From Natrinema ejinorense (GTDB lineage Archaea; Halobacteriota; Halobacteria; Halobacteriales; Natrialbaceae): 64,000 bases of DNA. Position numbers and translations under genes: made by a program. Positions 4,030-60,576 of this stretch are shown here, one piece after another; within the stretch, counting starts at the first letter, position 1; each line of letters opens with the position of its first letter. The notes beneath the pieces are model-generated. The model was not told the origin of the DNA, did no database searches, and worked only from the letters and a program-made list of their open reading frames with translations. The DNA is taken from the NCBI RefSeq assembly GCF_002494345.1, contig NZ_NXNI01000001.1:1488001-1552000 (forward strand). The letters run 5' to 3'.

Positions 4030-5465
4030 TGACATCCTCCCCGGCGTAAACGCCGGGGCTTCCCGTACCGCAAGTTGGGATATTTGACGGTCTACGACAC
4101 GACCTGTTCTCCCGTGCGAAACGTCCCGCTCTCGCGGTCGAACAAGTATGTCGATGGCTGTGCCACACAGCCGTTACTCCTATCCTCGCCGTGAGGACTC
4201 GAAGTTATCTTCTGTCGCATGTTCTCCGCCCCGTTGCAATCCGCGTTGGCCACCAACTTGCACGACGAACAAACGTACAGGCCACGTTCAACACGGTTCG
4301 ACTTCGTGTCATCGCCACACGCCGAACACGTCTTCGAGGTGTCCCACTCGTTCTCCTTCAAAACCTTAACACCACGTATCTCTCCTTTGTATTCGAGATA
4401 CTGGTAGATGCGGTCGAACGCCCACGTATGGAGTTTCTTGTTGCCGGTCTTGCCCCAGTCGGATTCTCGCACATTCTCGGGCCAACTCACCGCGAGCGTT
4501 CCAACACCTCGTTCGACACACTCCGTGATGATGGCGTCTGAGAGACCATGGTAGAAGTGTGTCTCTCGGTCAGCGAGTTTTCGACGTGCCCACATCGACT
4601 CCTCGGATGGGCCGTTCTCGCCCTCAGTGCCGTACTCTGCGCGGGTGAAGTAGTGTTTGTCCTGTTTGAGCGAGTTCCCGGGGTAGAGAACGTATTCGTC
4701 GGGGAATGCGACCGTGGCGATGTTCGTGATGCCGAGGTCGATTCCCGCTACTTCGTCACCTGCAGAGTCGTTGGTTTCGAGTTCGACTTTGCAGACGAAG
4801 TGCAGTTCCCACTCGTCGCCGTTCCAGACGGCGCGAACGTTCTGCACGCTGTTGACTTCCGAGAGGTCAACGTCCGGTCGAGTCTGGTACTCGCAGAGGA
4901 TGAAGTCCGACCAGTATTCTTTGAGATTCGAGCCTTTCGAGAGACGAACGCGGTTATTCTCTGGATCATGTTTGAATCCGTCTGTTTTGAACGTAACCGT
5001 GCTCTTGAGACGGGTGCCGCCGTGTTTGCGGTAGCCGGGCGGATTCGCCTCTGGGTCTTTCTGTCGCAGGTCGAACCATGACTGGAAAGCGTCAGAAAGT
5101 TCTTCAATGACTTTCTGACTGGATTGCGCGTTCAAATCTTTCCAGCACGACTGGTTCTTCATGTACGATTTCAGAACGCCTTCGTCTGGGATTTCGCCGG
5201 TTGCGTCCCAGATGCGATCGGCTGTCCAGCGTGCGACGTTCCAGATTTTCGAGGCGGAGTCTCCGAGCGAGTCAAGGCCATCGCAGACCTGTTGCTGGTT
5301 CTGAATGGAACCAATGTAGGTGCGAGTGACCTGAATCGCCATACATAGCCTATGTAGATAAACCTACTTAATGGCTCAGATTGGCGTTGAATATCCGACC
5401 TGCCATCGAACGGTGGATTTCGTAGTCGAGTGACGCGATTCACGTCCGCCCTAAAGGGCGGGATT
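4030..5465 (-). mobile_element. IS200/IS605-superfamily element, IS1341 type (tnpB only)
   Basis: A transposon with a tnpB gene but no tnpA. The terminus downstream of tnpB is marked by a hairpin (CCCCGGCGTTTACGCCGGGG, around 4040-4059) followed on the minus strand by GGAGGATGTCA, the same terminal signature as at 52378-52405. The terminus upstream of tnpB carries the palindrome CCGCCCTAAAGGGCGG (5446-5461). No target duplication is expected for this superfamily. Exact end bases are estimates. Confidence 0.75.
4092..5342 (-). CDS. tnpB: TnpB RNA-guided nuclease homologue with altered RuvC-II
   Basis: A 416-residue TnpB/OrfB protein. It has the N-terminal helical region, RuvC-I (AGIDLGITN, containing the catalytic Asp), a four-cysteine zinc ribbon (CSACG...CSSC) and RuvC-III (NADCNGAEN, Asp present). 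The RuvC-II segment reads LAVSWPENVRE where canonical members, such as 25423-26658 here, read LVLEDLTYIRE, so the catalytic Glu position is Ser and the following Asp is Trp. The frame is otherwise intact and full length. It could be nuclease-impaired or use a rearranged acidic residue. Intact TnpB proteins cut DNA using a guide RNA from the element's 3' end. Confidence 0.9.
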   Translation of the reverse strand: MAIQVTRTYIGSIQNQQQVCDGLDSLGDSASKIWNVARWTADRIWDATGEIPDEGVLKSYMKNQSCWKDLNAQSSQKVIEELSDAFQSWFDLRQKDPEANPPGYRKHGGTRLKSTVTFKTDGFKHDPENNRVRLSKGSNLKEYWSDFILCEYQTRPDVDLSEVNSVQNVRAVWNGDEWELHFVCKVELETNDSAGDEVAGIDLGITNIATVAFPDEYVLYPGNSLKQDKHYFTRAEYGTEGENGPSEESMWARRKLADRETHFYHGLSDAIITECVERGVGTLAVSWPENVRESDWGKTGNKKLHTWAFDRIYQYLEYKGEIRGVKVLKENEWDTSKTCSACGDDTKSNRVERGLYVCSSCKLVANADCNGAENMRQKITSSPHGEDRSNGCVAQPSTYLFDRESGTFRTGEQVVS

Positions 5466-5639: not shown

Positions 5640-6779
5640 ATGAGCAACGAGCCGCACCACACGACGCCAAGACTGGACTCCGAACTGCTGCAGGCAACGC
5701 GTCGTACCATGCTTCGCGGGGCAGGTCTCGCCGGAATGCTCGCGCTGGGGGGTGGCAGCGCCACTGCCCAGAAGGACTTCCCGAGATCAAACGCCTTACA
5801 AGACCAGAACGAGACGTCAGCGGATGACGAGTCAGTCCCGGTGACGTGGGAGAATTTCCCAACCGCTAGCTGTCATGCTGGATTCCAGTCAACCGTTAAC
5901 GAGGGTGGGTTCGGACAGTTCTATCATATGCGGGATCTGGCCCCCATCGAGGATCAGTTTGTTCCCGGGATCAGTCGTGACTTTCTCTACTCGTGGGGGG
6001 TCTTCGATCTGACCGAACCAGTCACCGTCACGCTCCCAGACAGCGGTGACCGATACATCTCAATGGGAGTTCAGAACGAGGACCAATATGCGAAGATGTG
6101 TGTCTACGATCCTGGCCAGTACACGATAACACAGGATCTCACAAAAACTCGGTACGCTGGCGTCTTGGTCCGCACGTTCGTCGATCCGAACGATCCTGAC
6201 GACGTAGAGACGGTCCATGGCTTACAGGACGAACTCGCAGTGAGCCAAGACTCCGCCGGTACGTTCGAGATTCCCAACTGGGAGCAGCAATCATTCGAAC
6301 AGATCGACGACGCGCTCAGAACAGTCGTGATCACGATAGACAACTGGTCGGGCGCGTACGGTGACGTCGACCAAGTTGACCCCGTGAAATTTTTCATCGC
6401 CTCTGTATCGAGGTGGACCGGAGTCCCGCAGCCGTCGGAAGCATTATTCCTCCAAAAGATTCCTACCCAGAATGACGGCACAACGCCATTCGAACTAACC
6501 GTCGACAAAGACGTCCCTGTCGGCGGATTCTGGTCGGTCAGCGTTTACAACAGTGAGGGATACTTCGAGGAGAACGAGTACGACGCGTACACGGTTAACA
6601 ACGTGACCGCAGAACAAGCCGACGACGGCAGTGTCACCGTTCACTTCGGTGGCAATCCCGACCAGCCGAACTTCATCTACACCCCTAAGAATTGGAACTA
6701 TATGGTCCGGCTCTACCAACCGCGCGAGGAGATTCTCGACGGAAGCTATCAGTTCCCCGAGGCCGAGCCGCTCGAGTGA
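5640..6779 (+). CDS. Tat-exported DUF1254/DUF1214 domain protein
   Basis: A 379-residue protein with a twin-arginine leader (ATRRTMLRG, residues 19-27, then a hydrophobic stretch ending near GSATA), so it is exported folded. The mature part carries a DUF1254-like region (roughly 60-190; LTEPVTVTLPDSGDRY, VRTFVDPND) and a C-terminal DUF1214 region (roughly 275-375; GFWSVSVYNSEGYF, FGGNPDQPNF, LYQPREEILDGSY). No catalytic residues are known for these families. Full paralogues are at 60656 and 62188, a 3' fragment at 53555, and the leader alone is fused to a photolyase at 57347. The SulP gene follows 44 bases later and may be cotranscribed. Confidence 0.88.
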   Translation: MSNEPHHTTPRLDSELLQATRRTMLRGAGLAGMLALGGGSATAQKDFPRSNALQDQNETSADDESVPVTWENFPTASCHAGFQSTVNEGGFGQFYHMRDLAPIEDQFVPGISRDFLYSWGVFDLTEPVTVTLPDSGDRYISMGVQNEDQYAKMCVYDPGQYTITQDLTKTRYAGVLVRTFVDPNDPDDVETVHGLQDELAVSQDSAGTFEIPNWEQQSFEQIDDALRTVVITIDNWSGAYGDVDQVDPVKFFIASVSRWTGVPQPSEALFLQKIPTQNDGTTPFELTVDKDVPVGGFWSVSVYNSEGYFEENEYDAYTVNNVTAEQADDGSVTVHFGGNPDQPNFIYTPKNWNYMVRLYQPREEILDGSYQFPEAEPLE

Positions 6780-6823: not shown

Positions 6824-8560
6824 ATGTCAAAAGAGCACCTAAAAGAACGAATTAGCCGACGGTTTTCGTCTACGCTCCCGGTGCTGGAGTGGCTTCCGCA
6901 GTACGACAGGTCCTGGCTCCGTCTGGACATCGTTGCTGGAATCACCGTTGCAGCGGCGGTCATTCCCGAAGGGTTGGCGTACGCGTCGCTCGCAAACCTG
7001 CCACCGGAGACCGGCTTATACGCCGGGTTGATGGCAGCCATCGCTTACCTTTTTCTTGGCACCTCTCGGCAGGTCATGGTGGGACCGACCTCGGCGCTGG
7101 CGATTCTGCTCGCGAGCGGTGTTGGAGCAGTTGCTGGCGGAAACAGCGCCTCATATGCGTCACTCGTTATCGTGACGACGATCCTCGTCGGTATCTTCGC
7201 AGTTATCGCGTGGGCGTTTCGGCTGGGGTTTCTCGTCCACTTTATTTCTGGTTCGGTGCTTACGGGGTTTTCCGCTGGGGCGGCACTATATATAATGTCT
7301 ACGCAACTGGACAAACTGTTCGGGATTGAGGGTAGCGCGTCGGGCGCCTTCTTCTGGGAAACGTTCTTTGGACGTATATGGTACACTGGTACCCATCTCG
7401 TTGAGACGAACCCGGAGACACTGGCCGTTGGTCTCGCTGGAATCGTGTTGCTCGTGCTCGGAGAACGTTATTTGCCGCGTGTCCCGAGTGCCCTCATCGT
7501 CGTCGTCCTTTCGATCGTGCTAATGTCGGTCACGAACCTGCAGGCACGCGGTGTCGCGATCGTTGGATCGATTCCGAGCGGTCTCCCTTCGCTGACAGTA
7601 CCGACCGTTCCCAGTATCTCGACGCTGGGTACCCTCGTCCCCATCGCCGCCGCGTTGTTTCTTCTTTCGTACGTCGAAGGCATCAGCGCCGTCGAGACGT
7701 TTGCCAGACGCCGCGACTACCGAACCGATGCGAATCAGGAGTTGCTGGCCGATGGCGGCGCCAACCTCGCTGCTGGCTTCGGTGGCGGATTCGTCGTCGG
7801 TGGAAGTATGTCTCGGTCGGCGCTCAACGACGCCGTCGGCGGCAAGACGCAACTCACGAACGCCGTCGTCGCTCTCGTTCTCGTCGTCGTCTTGCTCTTT
7901 CTCACCGAGATGTTCACGAATCTCCCAGAAACGGTTCTTGCAGCAATCGTTATCGTTGCCGTCACGGGCCTTATCGATACGAGCGAAATCCACCAACTGT
8001 ACCACGTGAGCAAGAGCGAGTTTGTCATCGCGATGGCGGCCTTGCTCGGGGTGCTCACAGTCGGGATGCTCTGGGGTGTCTTTGTCGGCGTCGTCCTTTC
8101 GTTGCTGGTCGCAATTTCTCGGGTTAGTCGCCCATCAACACACGAACTCGGTCAGATCACCGGAACGGACCACTTCGTCGCTCTCGACGTGTATCCGGCG
8201 GCAACGACCATCTCAGATGTGTTCGTCTACCGCGTCGAAGCCGAACTGTTCTATGCGAACGCAGATACGGTTCGGACCGACCTCCTTGAACGGCTCGCAG
8301 AACGCGATTCCGATGTCGAATTAGTCGTTTTCGATCTCACATCATCGTCAACAGTCGACTTCGGTGCCGCACAAATGTTGGATAAACTCGAGCAAAAACT
8401 CGACTCACGCGGAATCGACCTCCGTTTTGCGGGGGCGGAGTCCGAGGTTGTCCAGATGTTTGAAACGACGGGACTTGCAGCGAACGTTGGCGGCGTAGAA
8501 CCCGAGGAACCAATCGATGACGTCATTGACCGCTGGAGAACAGAGCGGTCGTCCTCGTAG
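6824..8560 (+). CDS. SulP family sulfate/anion permease with STAS domain
   Basis: A 578-residue SulP transporter. The signature region near the N-terminus is present (AAVIPEGLAYASLANLPPETG, here residues ~45-65, then MVGPTSALAILLASG), followed by about ten more membrane helices. A cytoplasmic STAS domain occupies roughly residues 450-575 (LFYANADTVRTDLLERL, DLTSSSTVDFGAAQML). SulP proteins move sulfate, bicarbonate or other anions, and the STAS domain regulates transport; the substrate cannot be assigned. ATG 6824 is preferred to the TTG at 6821. The short gap after the DUF1254 gene suggests a common transcript. Confidence 0.95.
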   Translation: MSKEHLKERISRRFSSTLPVLEWLPQYDRSWLRLDIVAGITVAAAVIPEGLAYASLANLPPETGLYAGLMAAIAYLFLGTSRQVMVGPTSALAILLASGVGAVAGGNSASYASLVIVTTILVGIFAVIAWAFRLGFLVHFISGSVLTGFSAGAALYIMSTQLDKLFGIEGSASGAFFWETFFGRIWYTGTHLVETNPETLAVGLAGIVLLVLGERYLPRVPSALIVVVLSIVLMSVTNLQARGVAIVGSIPSGLPSLTVPTVPSISTLGTLVPIAAALFLLSYVEGISAVETFARRRDYRTDANQELLADGGANLAAGFGGGFVVGGSMSRSALNDAVGGKTQLTNAVVALVLVVVLLFLTEMFTNLPETVLAAIVIVAVTGLIDTSEIHQLYHVSKSEFVIAMAALLGVLTVGMLWGVFVGVVLSLLVAISRVSRPSTHELGQITGTDHFVALDVYPAATTISDVFVYRVEAELFYANADTVRTDLLERLAERDSDVELVVFDLTSSSTVDFGAAQMLDKLEQKLDSRGIDLRFAGAESEVVQMFETTGLAANVGGVEPEEPIDDVIDRWRTERSSS

Positions 8561-8654
8561 ACGGATCTGTTTTCAGCTGCGGTCCCTCGAACCTTGCAGA
8601 GTCATCCAGATCGATGGCGGCTCGCATCCGACGTGTTCGATCTAGCGTTTTCGG

Positions 8655-10385
8655 TTAGTCATCCACGGCTGTTTCAGAAGTCTCATGTGTCGAACTCTGG
8701 GCTGACTCAGGGTGGTCAGTGTCGTCGTCATCTTCCGGTATCTGTCGTGGCAAGAACGTCGATGCGATAAGCAGGAGTAGCACGAACAGTACGAGGAGGA
8801 GCAGCGCCGCCCGTTGGGCGTCGAACATCGCAGTCTCGAAGATACCCTCGAGCAACTGTCGTTGCGTCGGAGTGAGTCGGTTTAGAAACTGTTGTTGTGT
8901 GGCTTCGGTCGCGGTCTCTGCTGCATCTTGGAGCGCGATCACCAGATCATTTCGTTGCTCCGTTGAAACGGTCACGTGTTCTGCTCGTAGTACCCCATCG
9001 ACGACACTCCCGTAGAACTGTCCGAGAAAGAACGAGCCAATGACTGCTGTCCCCAGGGAAAATCCGATCGAACTGCTCACGTTCAGGACGCCGGATGCCT
9101 CGGGAGAGTTCGCGGTCGGGACAGCCGACATTGTCATATTGCTGATCTGTGCCACTATGAGTCCGACACCGGCTCCGTAAAGCGTCACTGGAATAAGCAT
9201 CATGCCAATCGTCTGACCGGGGCCTGTCTGCTCGTACAACACCAACAATCCAGAGCCCATACACACGATGCCGAGCTGGACGAGCGTCTTTGGCGAGATG
9301 TACTTCCGCCAGCTGACCGTGACCGTCGCAAAGAGGATCGACGCAATAGAATACGGTAACAACGCGAGCCCAGTTTCGAAGGCGGTGTATCCGAGTACTG
9401 CCTGGAGATAGACCGGGAAAATGAACATGAAGCCGGCCGAGACTATCGAGCGAATATTGTACGTTATAATACCGGCCAAAAAAGGACGGTTCGTTAGTAC
9501 ATGCAGCGGAACGAGCGGCGACTTCCCAGCACGTTCCATTCGGCGTTCGTACTGAACGAACGCGGCGAGCACGAAAAGTCCAATCCCGAGAAACCAGATC
9601 GCCGGCGATGTCCCGAACGGATTGAATTGCATCTCTCCGATGACGAACGGCCGCCGTTCGATTAACCACCCGTACTTTCCGGAAAGAAGGAATCCCGTGA
9701 CGAGCGACGTCGCACCGACGATGGACAGCGCCGTCCCACCTTTATCCAGCGAAATGCGTGTTTCCGACAGGGGGTTCGGAGTCACGTACTGAACGAAGAA
9801 GAGAATAATCCCCGCACCGAGGATTTGGAGCGAAAATCCCCAGCGCCAGCTTGCGTACGTGGTTAGTGCGCCACCGATAATCGGTCCAAGAGTCGATCCA
9901 ACCCCGTGCACGCCAGCCAGCAGGCCGAATGCCTTCGCCCGGTCATCGTCGTCGTAACTGACTGTCAATACAGTGAACGTCAGGGGAAATAACACAGCGG
10001 CCGCGACACCCTGGATGAGCGACCAGCCGATATAGAGGATCGTCGTGTTCCAGCTAATAGACGCCACCAGCGTCCCACCGGCATAGACTATCAACGCAAC
10101 TGTCATTACACGCCTCGTGCTATGCCGAGTTGGCAGCGTACCGGCTGGGAGAACCAGCGCAGCTATCACCAGCGAGTAGAGTGAAACCGCCCCTTGAATC
10201 ACGGTGACCGTGGTATCGAACTCATCTACCATCGTGGGGATCGCCACGTTCATCAAAGAAGCGTTGACGACCAGGATGAACGTCGTCAGACTCACAGCGA
10301 TTGCTGGAGCCCAGTACCGTCCCCCAGTCCGCAACTCCTCAGACAGAGACATATTCTCGTCTGAAGGGGGCCCATCTGGGGTCAT
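8655..10385 (-). CDS. DHA2 (EmrB/QacA) family MFS drug exporter
   Basis: A 576-residue major-facilitator protein with 14 predicted helices. The N-terminal NASLMNVAIPTMVDEF motif and the TLGPIIGGALTTYASWRWGF motif C are typical of drug:H+ antiporter family 2. A long insert near residues 470-520 (ETATEATQQQFLNRL region) precedes the last helix, and the tail is acidic. It stands convergent to SulP. A deleted, start-less copy exists at 56415-56926 with the same upstream flank, so this gene was duplicated within the region. Probable role: proton-driven export of toxic compounds. Confidence 0.94.
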   Translation of the reverse strand: MTPDGPPSDENMSLSEELRTGGRYWAPAIAVSLTTFILVVNASLMNVAIPTMVDEFDTTVTVIQGAVSLYSLVIAALVLPAGTLPTRHSTRRVMTVALIVYAGGTLVASISWNTTILYIGWSLIQGVAAAVLFPLTFTVLTVSYDDDDRAKAFGLLAGVHGVGSTLGPIIGGALTTYASWRWGFSLQILGAGIILFFVQYVTPNPLSETRISLDKGGTALSIVGATSLVTGFLLSGKYGWLIERRPFVIGEMQFNPFGTSPAIWFLGIGLFVLAAFVQYERRMERAGKSPLVPLHVLTNRPFLAGIITYNIRSIVSAGFMFIFPVYLQAVLGYTAFETGLALLPYSIASILFATVTVSWRKYISPKTLVQLGIVCMGSGLLVLYEQTGPGQTIGMMLIPVTLYGAGVGLIVAQISNMTMSAVPTANSPEASGVLNVSSSIGFSLGTAVIGSFFLGQFYGSVVDGVLRAEHVTVSTEQRNDLVIALQDAAETATEATQQQFLNRLTPTQRQLLEGIFETAMFDAQRAALLLLVLFVLLLLIASTFLPRQIPEDDDDTDHPESAQSSTHETSETAVDD

Positions 10386-51101: not shown

Positions 51102-52358
51102 ATGCTGGAGACGACCCGCACCTACGTCGCACGCATCACGAACCACCAGCAGGTTCGTGAAGATCTAGACCAGTGTGGGTTCTCCGCATCCAAACTGTGG
51201 AACGTCGGCCGCTACTACATCCAACAACGGTGGGATGAAGACGGTGAGATACCCGACGAATCCGAGCTCAAATCGGAATTAAAAGACCACGAGCGCTATA
51301 GTGACCTGCATTCGCAGTCAAGTCAGCGAGTTCTCGAAGAACTTGCTGAGGCGTTCACCGGCTGGTACAACTCCGACGACGGCAACAACCCACCGGGCTA
51401 CCGGAAACGTGGCGACCGACACCCGCGCTCCACTGTCACATGGAAGAAGCGGGCGATCAAACATGACACGAAGCATGGACAGCTCAGGCTTTCAAAGGGA
51501 TTCAACTTGAAAGGAAGGCGGTCTGACTTCATCCTCGCGGAGTACGACACCCGTCCCGACGTACAGGTGGAGAACATCCAGCAGGTGCGTGCCGTCTACA
51601 ACGGCGACGAGTGGGAACTCCACCTCGTCTGTAAAAAAGAGATCCCCGTGGAAGACGCACCGGGCGACAACACGGCGGGGATCGACCTCGGAATCAGCAA
51701 CTACCTTGCCATCAACTACGAGGATGGCCCCTCGGAGCTGTATCCAGGGAACACGTTGAAAGAGGACAAGCATTACTTCACCCGCGAGGAGTACCAAACC
51801 GAAGGCGAGAACGGGCCGTCAAAACGTGCGCGGACGGCTCGGCAGAAACTCTCCCGACGCAAAGACCATTTCCTCCACACCCTCTCGAAACACATCGTTC
51901 AGCGGTGTGTCGAAGAAGGTGTAAGAGAGATTGCGGTTGGCGACCTCAGCGACATCCGTGAGGATGAGAACGGTGACTCGCGGAACTGGGGTGGGTCGGG
52001 GAACAAGAAACTCCACGGGTGGGAGTTCGACCGCTTCGCTCGTCTGCTTGAGTACAAGGCCGAAGAACACGGCATTCTCGTTGACCGTGTAGACGAGGAG
52101 AACACGAGCAAGACGTGTTCGTGTTGTGGGCAGATTCGTGATAGCAACCGCGTGGAGCGGGGTTTGTACGTCTGTTCGTCGTGCGAGACGACCATGAACG
52201 CGGACGTGAACGGTGCGGTGAACATTCGGAGAAAGATAACTCAGAATCCCCCGACGGGGGATATGAGTAACAGCTGGTTGGCACAGCCCGGAGTCTTCCT
52301 GTTCGACCGCGAGAGCGGGTCGTTCAACACGAGAGAGCAGGGAGTCTGCAAACCCTAA
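51102..52358 (+). CDS. tnpB: TnpB RNA-guided nuclease homologue, RuvC-II Glu replaced
   Basis: A 418-residue TnpB from ATG 51102 (MLETTRTYVARITNHQQVRE). RuvC-I is AGIDLGISNYLAINY, the zinc ribbon CSCCG...CSSC, and RuvC-III MNADVNGAVNIRRK. RuvC-II reads REIAVGDLSDIREDENGDSR, so Gly stands where the canonical Glu lies (LVLEDLTYIRE in 25423-26658), with an Asp one residue later. This GDL form may be a feature of a haloarchaeal subgroup and may use the shifted Asp. It is about as long as, and clearly related to, 4092-5342. Frame intact. Confidence 0.92.
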   Translation: MLETTRTYVARITNHQQVREDLDQCGFSASKLWNVGRYYIQQRWDEDGEIPDESELKSELKDHERYSDLHSQSSQRVLEELAEAFTGWYNSDDGNNPPGYRKRGDRHPRSTVTWKKRAIKHDTKHGQLRLSKGFNLKGRRSDFILAEYDTRPDVQVENIQQVRAVYNGDEWELHLVCKKEIPVEDAPGDNTAGIDLGISNYLAINYEDGPSELYPGNTLKEDKHYFTREEYQTEGENGPSKRARTARQKLSRRKDHFLHTLSKHIVQRCVEEGVREIAVGDLSDIREDENGDSRNWGGSGNKKLHGWEFDRFARLLEYKAEEHGILVDRVDEENTSKTCSCCGQIRDSNRVERGLYVCSSCETTMNADVNGAVNIRRKITQNPPTGDMSNSWLAQPGVFLFDRESGSFNTREQGVCKP

Positions 52359-53554: not shown

Positions 53555-54295
53555 ACCAAACCAGACACCGGTGATCGTCACCAGTCGATGGTTGTCATGG
53601 ACGAGGACGCGTATGTGAAAGAGGCATACCACGATCCCGGTGAGTACACGTTGACCCAGGACGGGGTCGGGACGCGGTACGTGTGGGTCATAGTCCGCAC
53701 GTTCGTTGATCCGAACGATCCGGGCGACGTAGCAGTCGTCCGTGGATTACAGGACGAACTCGCAGTGAGCCAGGACTCGGTCGGCACGTTCGAGATTCCA
53801 AATTGGGACCGCCAGGCACACGCAGAACTCTTCGACGCGCTCGTCACGGTTATGAAAACGATGGACGACTTCGGCGGCGCTTATGGCAACGTGGATGTGG
53901 TCAACCACGTGAAGTACTTCCTCGCTAGTGTGACACCGGGCGGAGTTCCGGAGCCAGAAACAATCTATCTGCAAAGGATCCCCGACCAGAACGACGGTGG
54001 CACGCCACACACATTCACCGTCGATGACGTCCCTGTCGACGGATTCTGGTCGGTCACCGTCTACAACAGCGACGGGTTTCTCGAGGAGAACGAGTACGAC
54101 GCGTACTCGTATAACAACGTGACTGCAGAGCAAGCCGAAGACGGCAGTGTCACGATCCATTTCGGCGGTGACCCCGATCAGCCGAACTTCCTCTACACCC
54201 CAGCGGAGTGGTTCTACCTGGTTCGACTCTACGGGCCCCGCGAGGAGATTCTTGACGGAAGCTATCAGTTCCCCGAAGCCGAGCTGGTCGGTTGA
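53555..54295 (+). pseudogene. DUF1254/DUF1214 protein, N-terminally truncated copy
   Basis: The frame TKPDTGDRHQSMVVMDEDAY onward, through VRTFVDPNDPGDVAVV to GFWSVTVYNSDGFLEENEYD and LYGPREEILDGSYQFPEAEL, is a faithful continuation of the family seen at 62188. The Tat leader and first ~110 residues are gone. The sequence joins a DUF7344 fragment at its 5' end. A start at ATG 53588 is possible but would lack the leader, so the product is probably not exported. Confidence 0.85.
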
Positions 54296-56414: not shown

Positions 56415-56926
56415 TTAGTCCTCCATGGCTGTTTCAGACGTTTTACGTGTTGAACCCTGGGGCGATTCGGAGTGATCGGTTCGTTCGTCGGCTTCCGGTA
56501 TTTGCCCTGGCAAGAACGTCGATGCGATAAGCAGGAGCAGTACGAACAGTACGAGGAGGTGCAGCGTCGCCCGTTGTGCGTCGAACACCGCAGCCTCGAA
56601 GATACCATCGAGCAACTGTCGTTGCGTCGGAGTGAGTCGGTTTAGGAACTGTTGTTGCGTGGCTTCGGTCGCCGTCTCAGTTACATCTTCGAGCGCGATC
56701 ACCAGCGAGTAGAGCGAAACGGCCCCCTGAATCACGGTGACTGAGGTATCGAACTCATCAACCATCGTGGGGATCGCCACGTTCATCAGGGAGGCGTTGA
56801 CGACCACGAGGAACGTCGTCAGACTCACGGCGATTGCCGGAGCCCAGTATTCTACCCCGTTCTGAAGCCTATCGGAAAGTGACGTTTTCCCGTTTAAACG
56901 CGCCCCATCTGGGGTTATAGCGTAGC
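56415..56926 (-). pseudogene. Internally deleted, start-less MFS exporter copy
   Basis: A second copy of the DHA2 exporter at 8655-10385. The usual first codon reads ATA (near 56924-56926, ITPDGARLNGKTSL), so the native start is lost; an internal ATG at 56828 (MSLTTFLVVVNASLMNVAIP) opens the frame. After SLYSLVIA the sequence jumps to LEDVTETATEATQQQF, which in the full gene lies about 400 residues later. The same short run (CTGGTGAT-GC, coding LVIA/LVIAL) occurs at both deletion borders of the parent gene. The upstream flank (GTCAAATAACCGGGACGTGG) also matches. Not functional as a transporter. Confidence 0.9.
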
Positions 56927-57201: not shown

Positions 57202-57266
57202 GATCAAGAATTTAGTGCCGTCTATCACTGTCATCATGTCACGAGTTTCTTCTCGAGTATCGTCAC

Positions 57267-57346
57267 TGTATTATATGGAATCCTGAAGTGCGAGTGTGTG
57301 AGTCGGTCGCAACTGCTGCTGTGGGCCACTCAGAGAGGCATGAGTC
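57267..57346 (+). promoter_or_regulatory. Conserved promoter/leader of the DUF1254 family, copy before photolyase
   Basis: TATA-like TATTATATG (57268-57276), then the leader CCTGAAGTGCGAGTGTGTGA, GTCGGTCGCAACTGCTGC, CAGAGAGGCATGAGTC ending at the ATG. It is nearly identical to the leaders at 5561, 60579 and 62110, which shows that promoter, leader and Tat signal were captured as one block by the photolyase. Confidence 0.7.
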
Positions 57347-58924
57347 ATGAGCGAAGAGCCATACCACACGACGTCAGAATCGGACTTTGAACCGCTGCGG
57401 GCGACACGCCGAAACGCACTTCGTGGGGCGGGCCTCGCCGGAATGCTCGCGATGGGCGGCGCCAGTGCCCGCCAAGACTCCGGTGTGCGACTTCACTGGC
57501 ACCGCCGCGATCTTCGTGTGACCGACAACCCGGCGCTGGCGGGCGACGACCGCCTACTCCCAGTGTTCGTCCACGATCCCGCGATACTCGCCTACGGCGC
57601 GCCGCCCGTGGTATCGTTCCTGCTCGGTGCGCTGGACTCGTTGCGCGAGCAGTACCGCGAGCGCGGCGGCGAACTGCTCCTCGCCCGCGGTGACCCGAGG
57701 ACGGTACTTTCCGACCTCGCCGAGGCCTGCGACGCCGATGCGGTCACCTGGAACCGCGACTACTCCGGACTGGCGAGCGAACGCGACCGTGCGGTCGCGG
57801 CGGCGCTCGCCGACGCCGGCGTCAGCGTCGACGTCGAGCGGTTCGGTGGCACTCTCCTCCATGAACCGGAGACCATCACGACGGCCGACGAGAGCCACTA
57901 CTCTGTCTTCTCGGACTTCTTGCAAGAGTGGCGCAACCAGGAGAAGACCGCCCCCGTCGCCGCGCCGGTTCGCGGTGACGTTGTCGACCCCCGCGACAGC
58001 CTCGACGAGGAGTGGCTCGACGAGGCCTCCGGTGCCGCCGGCCCGCTCCCGTCACTCGCCGAACTTGGCTTCGACGATCCTAATGCCGACGTGCAGCCAG
58101 CGGGTACAGACGTCGCCCACGACCTACTCGCCGACTTCCGCGAGGACACTATCTACCGGTACGGGGACGACCGCGAGTACCCCGCCCGGGAGTCGACCTC
58201 GCGTCTCTCGCCGCACCTGAAGTTCGGGACAGTCGGCATCCGAGCGGTCTGGAAAGCCACTGAGGACGCGGCGGCCACCGCTGGCGACGGGTACGCCCGG
58301 GAGTCAGTCGAGACGTTCCAGCGACGGCTTGCCTGGCGTGAGTTCTACGCGCACGTCCTCGACGCGCGTCCCGACGTAGTTATCGAGAACTACCGCGAGT
58401 ACCCGAACGAAATCCAGTGGCGCGACGATCTCGGGGGACTCCGGGCCTGGAAGGACGGCGAGACGGGATATCCGCTCGTCGACGCCGGGATGCGGCAGTT
58501 ACGCGACGAGGCGTGGGTTCACAATCGCGTTCGGATGGTGGCCGCCTCGTTCCTCACGAAGGACCTACTGATCGACTGGCGCGAGGGGTACGACTGGTAC
58601 CGTCGGAAACTTGCGGACCACGACACCGCCCACGCCGCTGGCGGCTGGCAGTGGGCTGCATCGACGGGAACGAACGCCCAGCCGTACTTCCGCTTCCTCA
58701 GCCCCGTGACCCAGTCGAAGGAGTACGACCCGGACGGCGAGTACGTCAGGGAGCACGTTCCCGAACTCCGAGACGCGCCGACCGACGCCATCCACGAGTG
58801 GCCCATACTGGATGACGAGAAACGCGCCGTCATCGCACCCGACTACACCGAGCCTATCGTAGACTACGGCGAGCACTACGAGCGCGCAATCGAGGCGTTC
58901 GAGGCCGCGCGCGGCGACGGCTGA
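57347..58924 (+). CDS. phr: DNA photolyase fused to a Tat signal peptide
   Basis: A 525-residue frame. Residues 1-~44 (EPYHTTSESDFEPL, ATRRNALRGAGLAGMLAMGG) are the Tat leader of the DUF1254 family; from ~47 a full cryptochrome/photolyase follows. The antenna domain spans about 48-185 (RLHWHRRDLRVTDNPALAGD) and the FAD domain the rest: SRLSPHLKFGTVGIR, FQRRLAWREFYAHVL, GYPLVDAGMRQL, WVHNRVRMVAASFL, HAAGGWQWAASTGTNAQPYF. The Trp and Asn positions around the flavin look normal for a class I CPD photolyase. A GTG at 57485 falls exactly where photolyase homology starts and could yield a cytosolic enzyme. If the first ATG is used, the repair enzyme would be sent out of the cell, which is biologically odd. 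Confidence 0.9.
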   Translation: MSEEPYHTTSESDFEPLRATRRNALRGAGLAGMLAMGGASARQDSGVRLHWHRRDLRVTDNPALAGDDRLLPVFVHDPAILAYGAPPVVSFLLGALDSLREQYRERGGELLLARGDPRTVLSDLAEACDADAVTWNRDYSGLASERDRAVAAALADAGVSVDVERFGGTLLHEPETITTADESHYSVFSDFLQEWRNQEKTAPVAAPVRGDVVDPRDSLDEEWLDEASGAAGPLPSLAELGFDDPNADVQPAGTDVAHDLLADFREDTIYRYGDDREYPARESTSRLSPHLKFGTVGIRAVWKATEDAAATAGDGYARESVETFQRRLAWREFYAHVLDARPDVVIENYREYPNEIQWRDDLGGLRAWKDGETGYPLVDAGMRQLRDEAWVHNRVRMVAASFLTKDLLIDWREGYDWYRRKLADHDTAHAAGGWQWAASTGTNAQPYFRFLSPVTQSKEYDPDGEYVREHVPELRDAPTDAIHEWPILDDEKRAVIAPDYTEPIVDYGEHYERAIEAFEAARGDG

Positions 58925-59552: not shown

Positions 59553-60380
59553 TCACTTAGCCTTCCTCTCCGACTCAGGTTCGTCTTCTTCAGGCTTCTC
59601 TTCGTCCGGTTCAACGTCCTCTTCGTCCGGGAGAGAGCCCTCCGTGGTGAGTATCTCGAACGGCTCATCAGCGGGTGCCACCTCCGGCTCGAGGTAGCCA
59701 ATCGCGAACGCGGAGTAGACGGTTCCTCCGGTGAGGGAAACGTCGATTTCGAAGACGCTGGTCTCCCGGTCACCCGCGGGATAGATGACGAGCGTATACT
59801 CGCCTTCCGGGACTTCGGTGTAGCCGGATTCACCGAACGCGACGTTCTCGAACAGCGCGTCCCCTGTTTCACCGGCAACGACGTCCACCGCAGGCGCATC
59901 GGGTGATGCGTGGAGGACGCGAACCCGAGCGGTACCCGGACCGACTGGGCTGTTGTCGTCGTCGAGGAACAGCGCCTCGAGGGGCTGGTTTTCGGCGGCC
60001 ACTTCGCCGATCACTGCGAGGAGACCGTCGAGGGTGGAGTCCACGTCGCCGGCCTCGACGGTCTCCTCGAGCACTGCTTCGGCCGGGTCTTCACCGGCGG
60101 GAACGACCTGGACCGTGTACGTGCCAGGCGGGAGGTCGCGGTAGTCGGTGACCGTCCCGTACGGGATGCCCTCGCGGACCCGCTCTCCGTCGACGTAGAT
60201 GTCGATGTTGGGTGCATCGGGTGAGAGGTGTGCAACTCGAGTCTGGAAGTCGGTATCGGTTGGCTGGTCGTTCGTTTCGTGGTCACTCGAGGCGGCCGTG
60301 GTACTTCCGACGCCACTGACTACCACGAGGCCGCCGCCGATTTGTATAATTCGCCGTCGGCTCACGCCATTTTCGGTCAT
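59553..60380 (-). CDS. Tat-exported DUF4397 protein
   Basis: A 275-residue protein from ATG 60380 with a twin-arginine leader (GVSRRRIIQIGGGLVV, residues 5-20). Two DUF4397 repeats follow, at about 48-140 (TRVAHLSPDAPNIDIYVDGE, PPGTYTVQVVPAGED) and 148-240 (ARVRVLHASPDAPAVDVVAG, YTLVIYPAGDRE). They are beta-sandwich modules common on archaeal cell surfaces and have no known enzyme activity. The C-terminal ~35 residues are nearly all Asp, Glu, Pro and Lys, with no membrane anchor, so the protein is probably released or cell-surface associated. Confidence 0.88.
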   Translation of the reverse strand: MTENGVSRRRIIQIGGGLVVVSGVGSTTAASSDHETNDQPTDTDFQTRVAHLSPDAPNIDIYVDGERVREGIPYGTVTDYRDLPPGTYTVQVVPAGEDPAEAVLEETVEAGDVDSTLDGLLAVIGEVAAENQPLEALFLDDDNSPVGPGTARVRVLHASPDAPAVDVVAGETGDALFENVAFGESGYTEVPEGEYTLVIYPAGDRETSVFEIDVSLTGGTVYSAFAIGYLEPEVAPADEPFEILTTEGSLPDEEDVEPDEEKPEEDEPESERKAK

Positions 60381-60576
60381 TGGATTGTCATGAACGACGA
60401 TATCGGTAATAGTGCTACCACTTGCAGGCGCAGGCCGATGCAGTTCCGAGTCTCGATATCCAACGCGTTGGGGTTCCGAGCGAACCACAGGTGCAAATAG
60501 GATATTGATAATTTAAAGACAGTCATTAATCTAATACCATCATCATACAATTATATTGTTCGAGAGCATCGGCACT

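Follow-up and report, generated by a model that had tools for sequence, protein, structure and literature searches.

The gene at positions 57347-58924 of the forward strand in the stretch analysed here (64,000 nucleotides of Natrinema ejinorense DNA, referred to below as the window) joins the promoter and twin-arginine (Tat) type leader of one protein family to a class I photolyase, and raises the question of where such a protein acts and what it does there. The known photolyases and cryptochromes are intracellular. The preliminary description of this locus had offered two readings, namely an exported flavoprotein, or a regulatory capture in which a GTG at 57485 gives the normal enzyme under a new promoter. 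The comparisons reported below favour the former, and the product is on balance likely to be an FAD protein that descends from Phr2, the class I CPD photolyase of haloarchaea, and is exported by Tat, with the capacity for CPD repair probably lost.

Layout of the fused gene

The reading frame encodes 525 amino acids and is open throughout. A segment extending from 57247 to 57469 was found to be 76-80% identical at the DNA level to the 5' ends of three DUF1254/DUF1214 genes located at 5640, 60656, and 62188 (E values of 8.9e-51, 2.9e-46, and 5.9e-46 in the three alignments). The homologous DNA thus begins approximately 100 bp upstream of the ATG, ends at codon 41, and comprises a captured upstream region (57247-57346) with a TATA box (TTATAT, 57271-57276), the 5' UTR, and a Shine-Dalgarno-like motif (GAGAGG, 57333-57338, 8 nt before the leader ATG), followed by the ATG and a 41-codon Tat-type leader (57347-57469) with an intact twin arginine (57407-57412). 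The leader ends in GASA, which contains a signal-peptidase-type AxA motif, and is followed by the linker RQDSG (57470-57484), from which the frame continues without interruption into the photolyase.

Homology to photolyases begins one codon past the GTG at 57485, and the class I photolyase body, including the stop codon, occupies 57488-58924. Its assignment was based on Pfam, sequence matches in the PDB, an AlphaFold model, and Foldseek. The Pfam domains DNA_photolyase (PF00875; residues 49-205, 1e-37) and FAD_binding_7 (PF03441; residues 324-519, 1.7e-73) were both detected, and the AlphaFold model showed the photolyase fold with a disordered leader; the closest structural match in Foldseek was the A. 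nidulans photolyase. The fused protein is therefore a member of the photolyase/cryptochrome family. The domains that define DUF1254/DUF1214 proteins (PF06863 and PF06742) were not found in it, and its homology to the members of that family in the window is confined to the promoter, 5' UTR, and leader, the bodies being unrelated. A loop near the FAD (residues 426-448) was modelled with low confidence, but this was rejected as a feature of the fusion since confidence was also low there in the ordinary photolyase when it was modelled from the same rows. These results bear out the in-frame junction, intact RR motif, entire photolyase, and homology to three DUF1254/DUF1214 genes given in the preliminary description. 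Its estimate of about 44 shared codons was close, whereas that of about 75 shared bases upstream was too short.

Distribution and descent of the fusion

Among 125 Natrialbaceae-level relatives searched, the same full-length in-frame fusion was present in 14 genomes, the one containing the window among them, which represent 7 genera; the full-length orthologues were 85-93% identical. Photolyases with a twin-arginine N-terminus, suggested earlier as something to look for, therefore exist beyond the window, and the TRRxxL motif is present in all 14. Carriers include Natronorubrum thiooxidans, Natrinema hispanicum, and Natronococcus jeotgali, and the gene is borne on plasmids in Natrinema gelatinilyticum and Natribaculum luteum; a further copy, additional to the 14, was located on a plasmid of Natribaculum longum (85.5% identity over residues 1-523). 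Because the identical in-frame junction is found in 14 genomes, the possibility raised in the preliminary description that the leader is an assembly join can be excluded. No fused copy was detected outside the Natrialbaceae when 391 genomes sampled evenly across the class were searched, the sole extra match there aligning only from residue 23 (61%), and none was found in the viral contig database.

The fused proteins formed a single clade (support of 100) on a long stem, within which the genera were mixed; this pattern suggests one fusion event followed by transfer. A Phr2-type photolyase copy would have recombined, apparently once, into the position directly after a DUF1254/DUF1214 promoter and signal peptide, and the fusion would afterwards have spread within the Natrialbaceae. 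The gene is accessory, as a genome of the same species (G108) does not carry it. At least one other PF03441 protein is encoded by 12 of the 14 fusion genomes, including that of the window, where a second, ordinary photolyase (G000:C1:1269560) is 57% identical to the fused body. In G133 and G029 (Natronococcus jeotgali), the fused protein is the only PF03441 protein.

Across the neighbourhoods in the fusion genomes, no conserved operon or functional partner was found; DUF1254 genes, a SulP transporter, an MFS gene, a Na+/H+ exchanger, and a DUF4397 protein lie near the fused gene in some genomes only. Within the window, the DUF4397 protein (59553-60488, reverse strand) has an RR motif, and DNA with 85-87% similarity to it precedes the fused gene in two other genomes (G036 and G068). 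The MFS gene (56415-56828, reverse strand) has a large internal deletion, longer relatives being located at 8655-10385 and beside the fused gene in G135, and a DUF1254/DUF1214 body without its leader and N-terminal part is located at 53588-54295 (forward strand). Two OrfB/TnpB-like genes lie near the ends of the window (51102-52358, forward; 4092-5342, reverse), the first of which, the one analysed with Pfam, has OrfB_IS605 and Cas12f1-like TNB domains. In G133, a 561-aa ORF located +1851 to +3537 from the fused ATG (L149) starts with a DUF1254-type leader (MSKKTDHTTPELDVKLLRSPRRTALRG) and continues into a protein that contributes a second RR motif (LTRREALQRGG); this mosaic indicates that leader shuffling may recur in such clusters.

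Start of translation and constraint on the leader

Codon 47 (GTG at 57485-57487 in the window) corresponds to the position at which ordinary photolyases start, a codon that was ATG in 66 and GTG in 21 of 87 unfused haloarchaeal genes. In the fused genes this codon was GTG (6), ATG (2), ATA (2), CTG (2), GTA (1), or GCG (1), giving a non-start codon in 6 of 14 compared with 0 of 87, and this variety implies more than one loss of the ordinary start. The GTG at 57485 was accordingly rejected as a conserved start, and the earlier proposal that it yields a normal enzyme is not upheld, since the residues that contact FAD, CPD, and the antenna are also changed (see below). A better internal-start candidate is the in-frame ATG at codon 36 (57452-57454), which is present in 14/14 fused genes and makes Met36 a possible alternative start; a Met is also found at this place in three DUF1254 leaders.

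Several lines of evidence point to use of the upstream ATG. The position of the TATA-like box varies only between -75 and -78 among the 14 orthologues, and the spacing of both this box and the GAGAGG-like motif fits the leader ATG. In the motif RATRRxALRGAG, the 11 fixed residues were invariant in every orthologue, each being encoded by 2-3 synonymous codons. When omega was estimated under a codon model, with the photolyase body supplying the tree, codons 2-35 of the leader gave an omega of 0.41 (2dlnL of 20.6 against omega of 1) and codons 17-35 gave 0.22 (2dlnL of 22.7). As a control, pooled pN/pS for codons 2-35 was 0.49 in the fused leaders and likewise 0.49 in 19 DUF1254 leaders. In the sequences compared, the leader is thus under purifying selection at the amino-acid level as strong as that on real DUF1254 leaders, which speaks for translation of the whole leader.

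The first alternative is that only regulation was captured, in which case the photolyase took over the DUF1254 promoter but would be made as a cytoplasmic protein starting at ATG36 (57452) or codon 47. The universal presence of ATG36 agrees with such a start, as does the way in which NCBI annotates the N. luteum gene (L184; NZ_CP095398.1, CDS 8139-9578): the CDS begins at the CTG of codon 47, and at least one public record thus hides the leader by omitting it. The constraint on codons 2-35, the six non-start codons at position 47, and the placement of the conserved promoter and GAGAGG-like motifs for the leader ATG nevertheless make this alternative unlikely.

The features expected of a Tat substrate were present in the leaders. 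In addition to TRRxxL, an A/T-S-A cleavage-type site was found in 14/14, and the linker between it and the photolyase was unchanged in length in every copy. Tat substrates have an uncharged h-region; a stretch of at least 15 uncharged residues was present in 12 of 14 leaders, and in G133 and G029 an Arg at leader position 38, seen in these two only, shortens it from 15 to 11 residues. These are the same two genomes that encode no other PF03441 protein, and the fused protein might have an intracellular role in them. Their atypical leaders, and the photolyase fold and DNA-facing residues that are largely retained throughout the clade, are the points in favour of a second alternative, in which the leader is translated but serves as an inert or regulatory extension of a cytoplasmic enzyme. 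The constraint is, however, centred on the twin arginine and the hydrophobic segment, as it is in real DUF1254 leaders, and this alternative is considered somewhat less probable still than the first.

Some lineages have probably exchanged leaders between fused and DUF1254 genes, the fused leader of G020 resembling a DUF1254 leader of G018, and this exchange may contribute to the conservation signal. Gene conversion was rejected as its sole cause. In two genomes (G036 and G107) no DUF1254 homologue was found, yet the fused leader is kept in both, with 9 synonymous changes and 5 nonsynonymous ones separating the two over codons 2-35; exchange therefore cannot explain all of the conservation. The exported-flavoprotein reading, left undecided in the preliminary description, is favoured by this persistence together with the retention of the leader in 14 genomes under amino-acid-level selection. 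The protein would be translated from 57347, fold with FAD in the cytoplasm, and then be exported by the Tat pathway, and cleavage after Ala41 would leave RQDSG and the photolyase body as a soluble flavoprotein at the cell surface or outside the cell.

Active site and probable role

The fused protein belongs to the same family and fold as haloarchaeal Phr2, with 51-63% identity over the body and a conserved Trp triad, and differs from it by the leader and at three sites. The residue facing flavin N5 (E. coli N378 position), Asn or Asp in functional class I CPD photolyases, was Ala in 14/14 fused proteins (Ala430, 58634-58636 in the window) and Asp in 84/85 unfused ones. The position contacting CPD and FAD (E. 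coli E274), where functional enzymes have Glu or Gln, was Arg in 13/14 (Arg327, 58325-58327), with Gln in G018 and in 85/85 unfused proteins. The antenna (8-HDF) Arg was replaced by Val in 14/14 (Val88, 57608-57610) and retained in 85/85 unfused proteins; the equivalent R50 contacts HDF (PMC10052015). The nearest unfused relatives have the ordinary active-site residues, and the changes therefore go with the fusion. The remaining Trp triad and CPD-site residues were preserved (W306, W359, W382, W277, W384, N341, R342, and R344 in 14/14; M345 in 13/14). The N5-facing residue governs protonation of the semiquinone in the photolyase/cryptochrome family (PMC7910608), and its replacement by Ala should therefore alter the flavin photochemistry.

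Judging from these residues, CPD repair by the fused protein has probably been lost, with repair left to the ordinary Phr2 copy where one is present. The protein would most likely be a light-absorbing redox or sensory flavoprotein, probably working outside the cell and in a role other than DNA repair. In a fuller and more tentative form, to which slightly less than an even chance is given, the fused proteins would make up an extracellular clade of the photolyase/cryptochrome family, exported by Tat with FAD loaded, devoid of CPD repair, and acting at the surface or outside the cell as blue-light sensors or light-driven redox proteins. If this is true, a conserved and selected export signal combined with altered flavin-N5, substrate, and antenna sites would mean that a classic flavoprotein family has changed in compartment as well as in chemistry, and would open the question of a role for the photolyase fold outside the cell.

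An exported protein that still repairs CPDs, on extracellular DNA (e.g., before uptake or as a shared resource), would account for the conserved CPD-site Trp, Asn, Arg, and Met residues and Trp triad, but is improbable in view of the three replaced sites and the poor photoreactivation of strain BOL5-1 described below, though that assay reports on intracellular repair. A decaying gene or a functionless product of chance recombination can be dismissed as highly improbable: truncated genes do lie nearby (the DUF1254 body at 53588 and the MFS gene at 56415) and one genome of the same species lacks the gene, but it is open in 14/14 and omega for the body, estimated in two parts, was 0.11-0.13. Among these genomes the body is under strong purifying selection, and a pseudogene was rejected on the same grounds.

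Compared with known systems, plant and insect cryptochromes have the photolyase fold, the Trp triad, and an altered N5-facing residue in common with the fused protein, this residue being Asp in AtCRY1 and Cys in Drosophila CRY (PMC7910608). No report of Ala at this site in cryptochromes was found in the literature examined. Cryptochromes are intracellular, whereas export is predicted for the fused protein, which has no C-terminal extension. The Aspergillus nidulans protein CryA is a class I photolyase whose N-terminal extension sets its cellular location (PMC12887071), but that extension is unrelated and directs shuttling from nucleus to mitochondrion. A literature search covering part of the literature found no earlier report of an exported photolyase.

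A published precedent is the Phr2 variant of Haloterrigena salifodinae BOL5-1, which carries R50V, Q282R, N384H, D385A, and D398N relative to NRC-1; the strain showed little to no photoreactivation, and the changes were attributed to life in the dark subsurface, the photolyase being called degraded (PMC10052015). A leader is nowhere mentioned in that description. This protein shares V50, H144, F148, S149, D150, R282, H384, A385, and N398 (A. nidulans numbering) with the fused clade, and because its residues match the signature of the clade it is very probably a member. The same changes are fixed clade-wide under strong purifying selection, which points to changed function and not to decay. If so, the 'degenerate' photolyase of a subsurface haloarchaeon may instead be read as a conserved paralogue that purifying selection maintains, and relaxed selection in a dark habitat would not be its origin.
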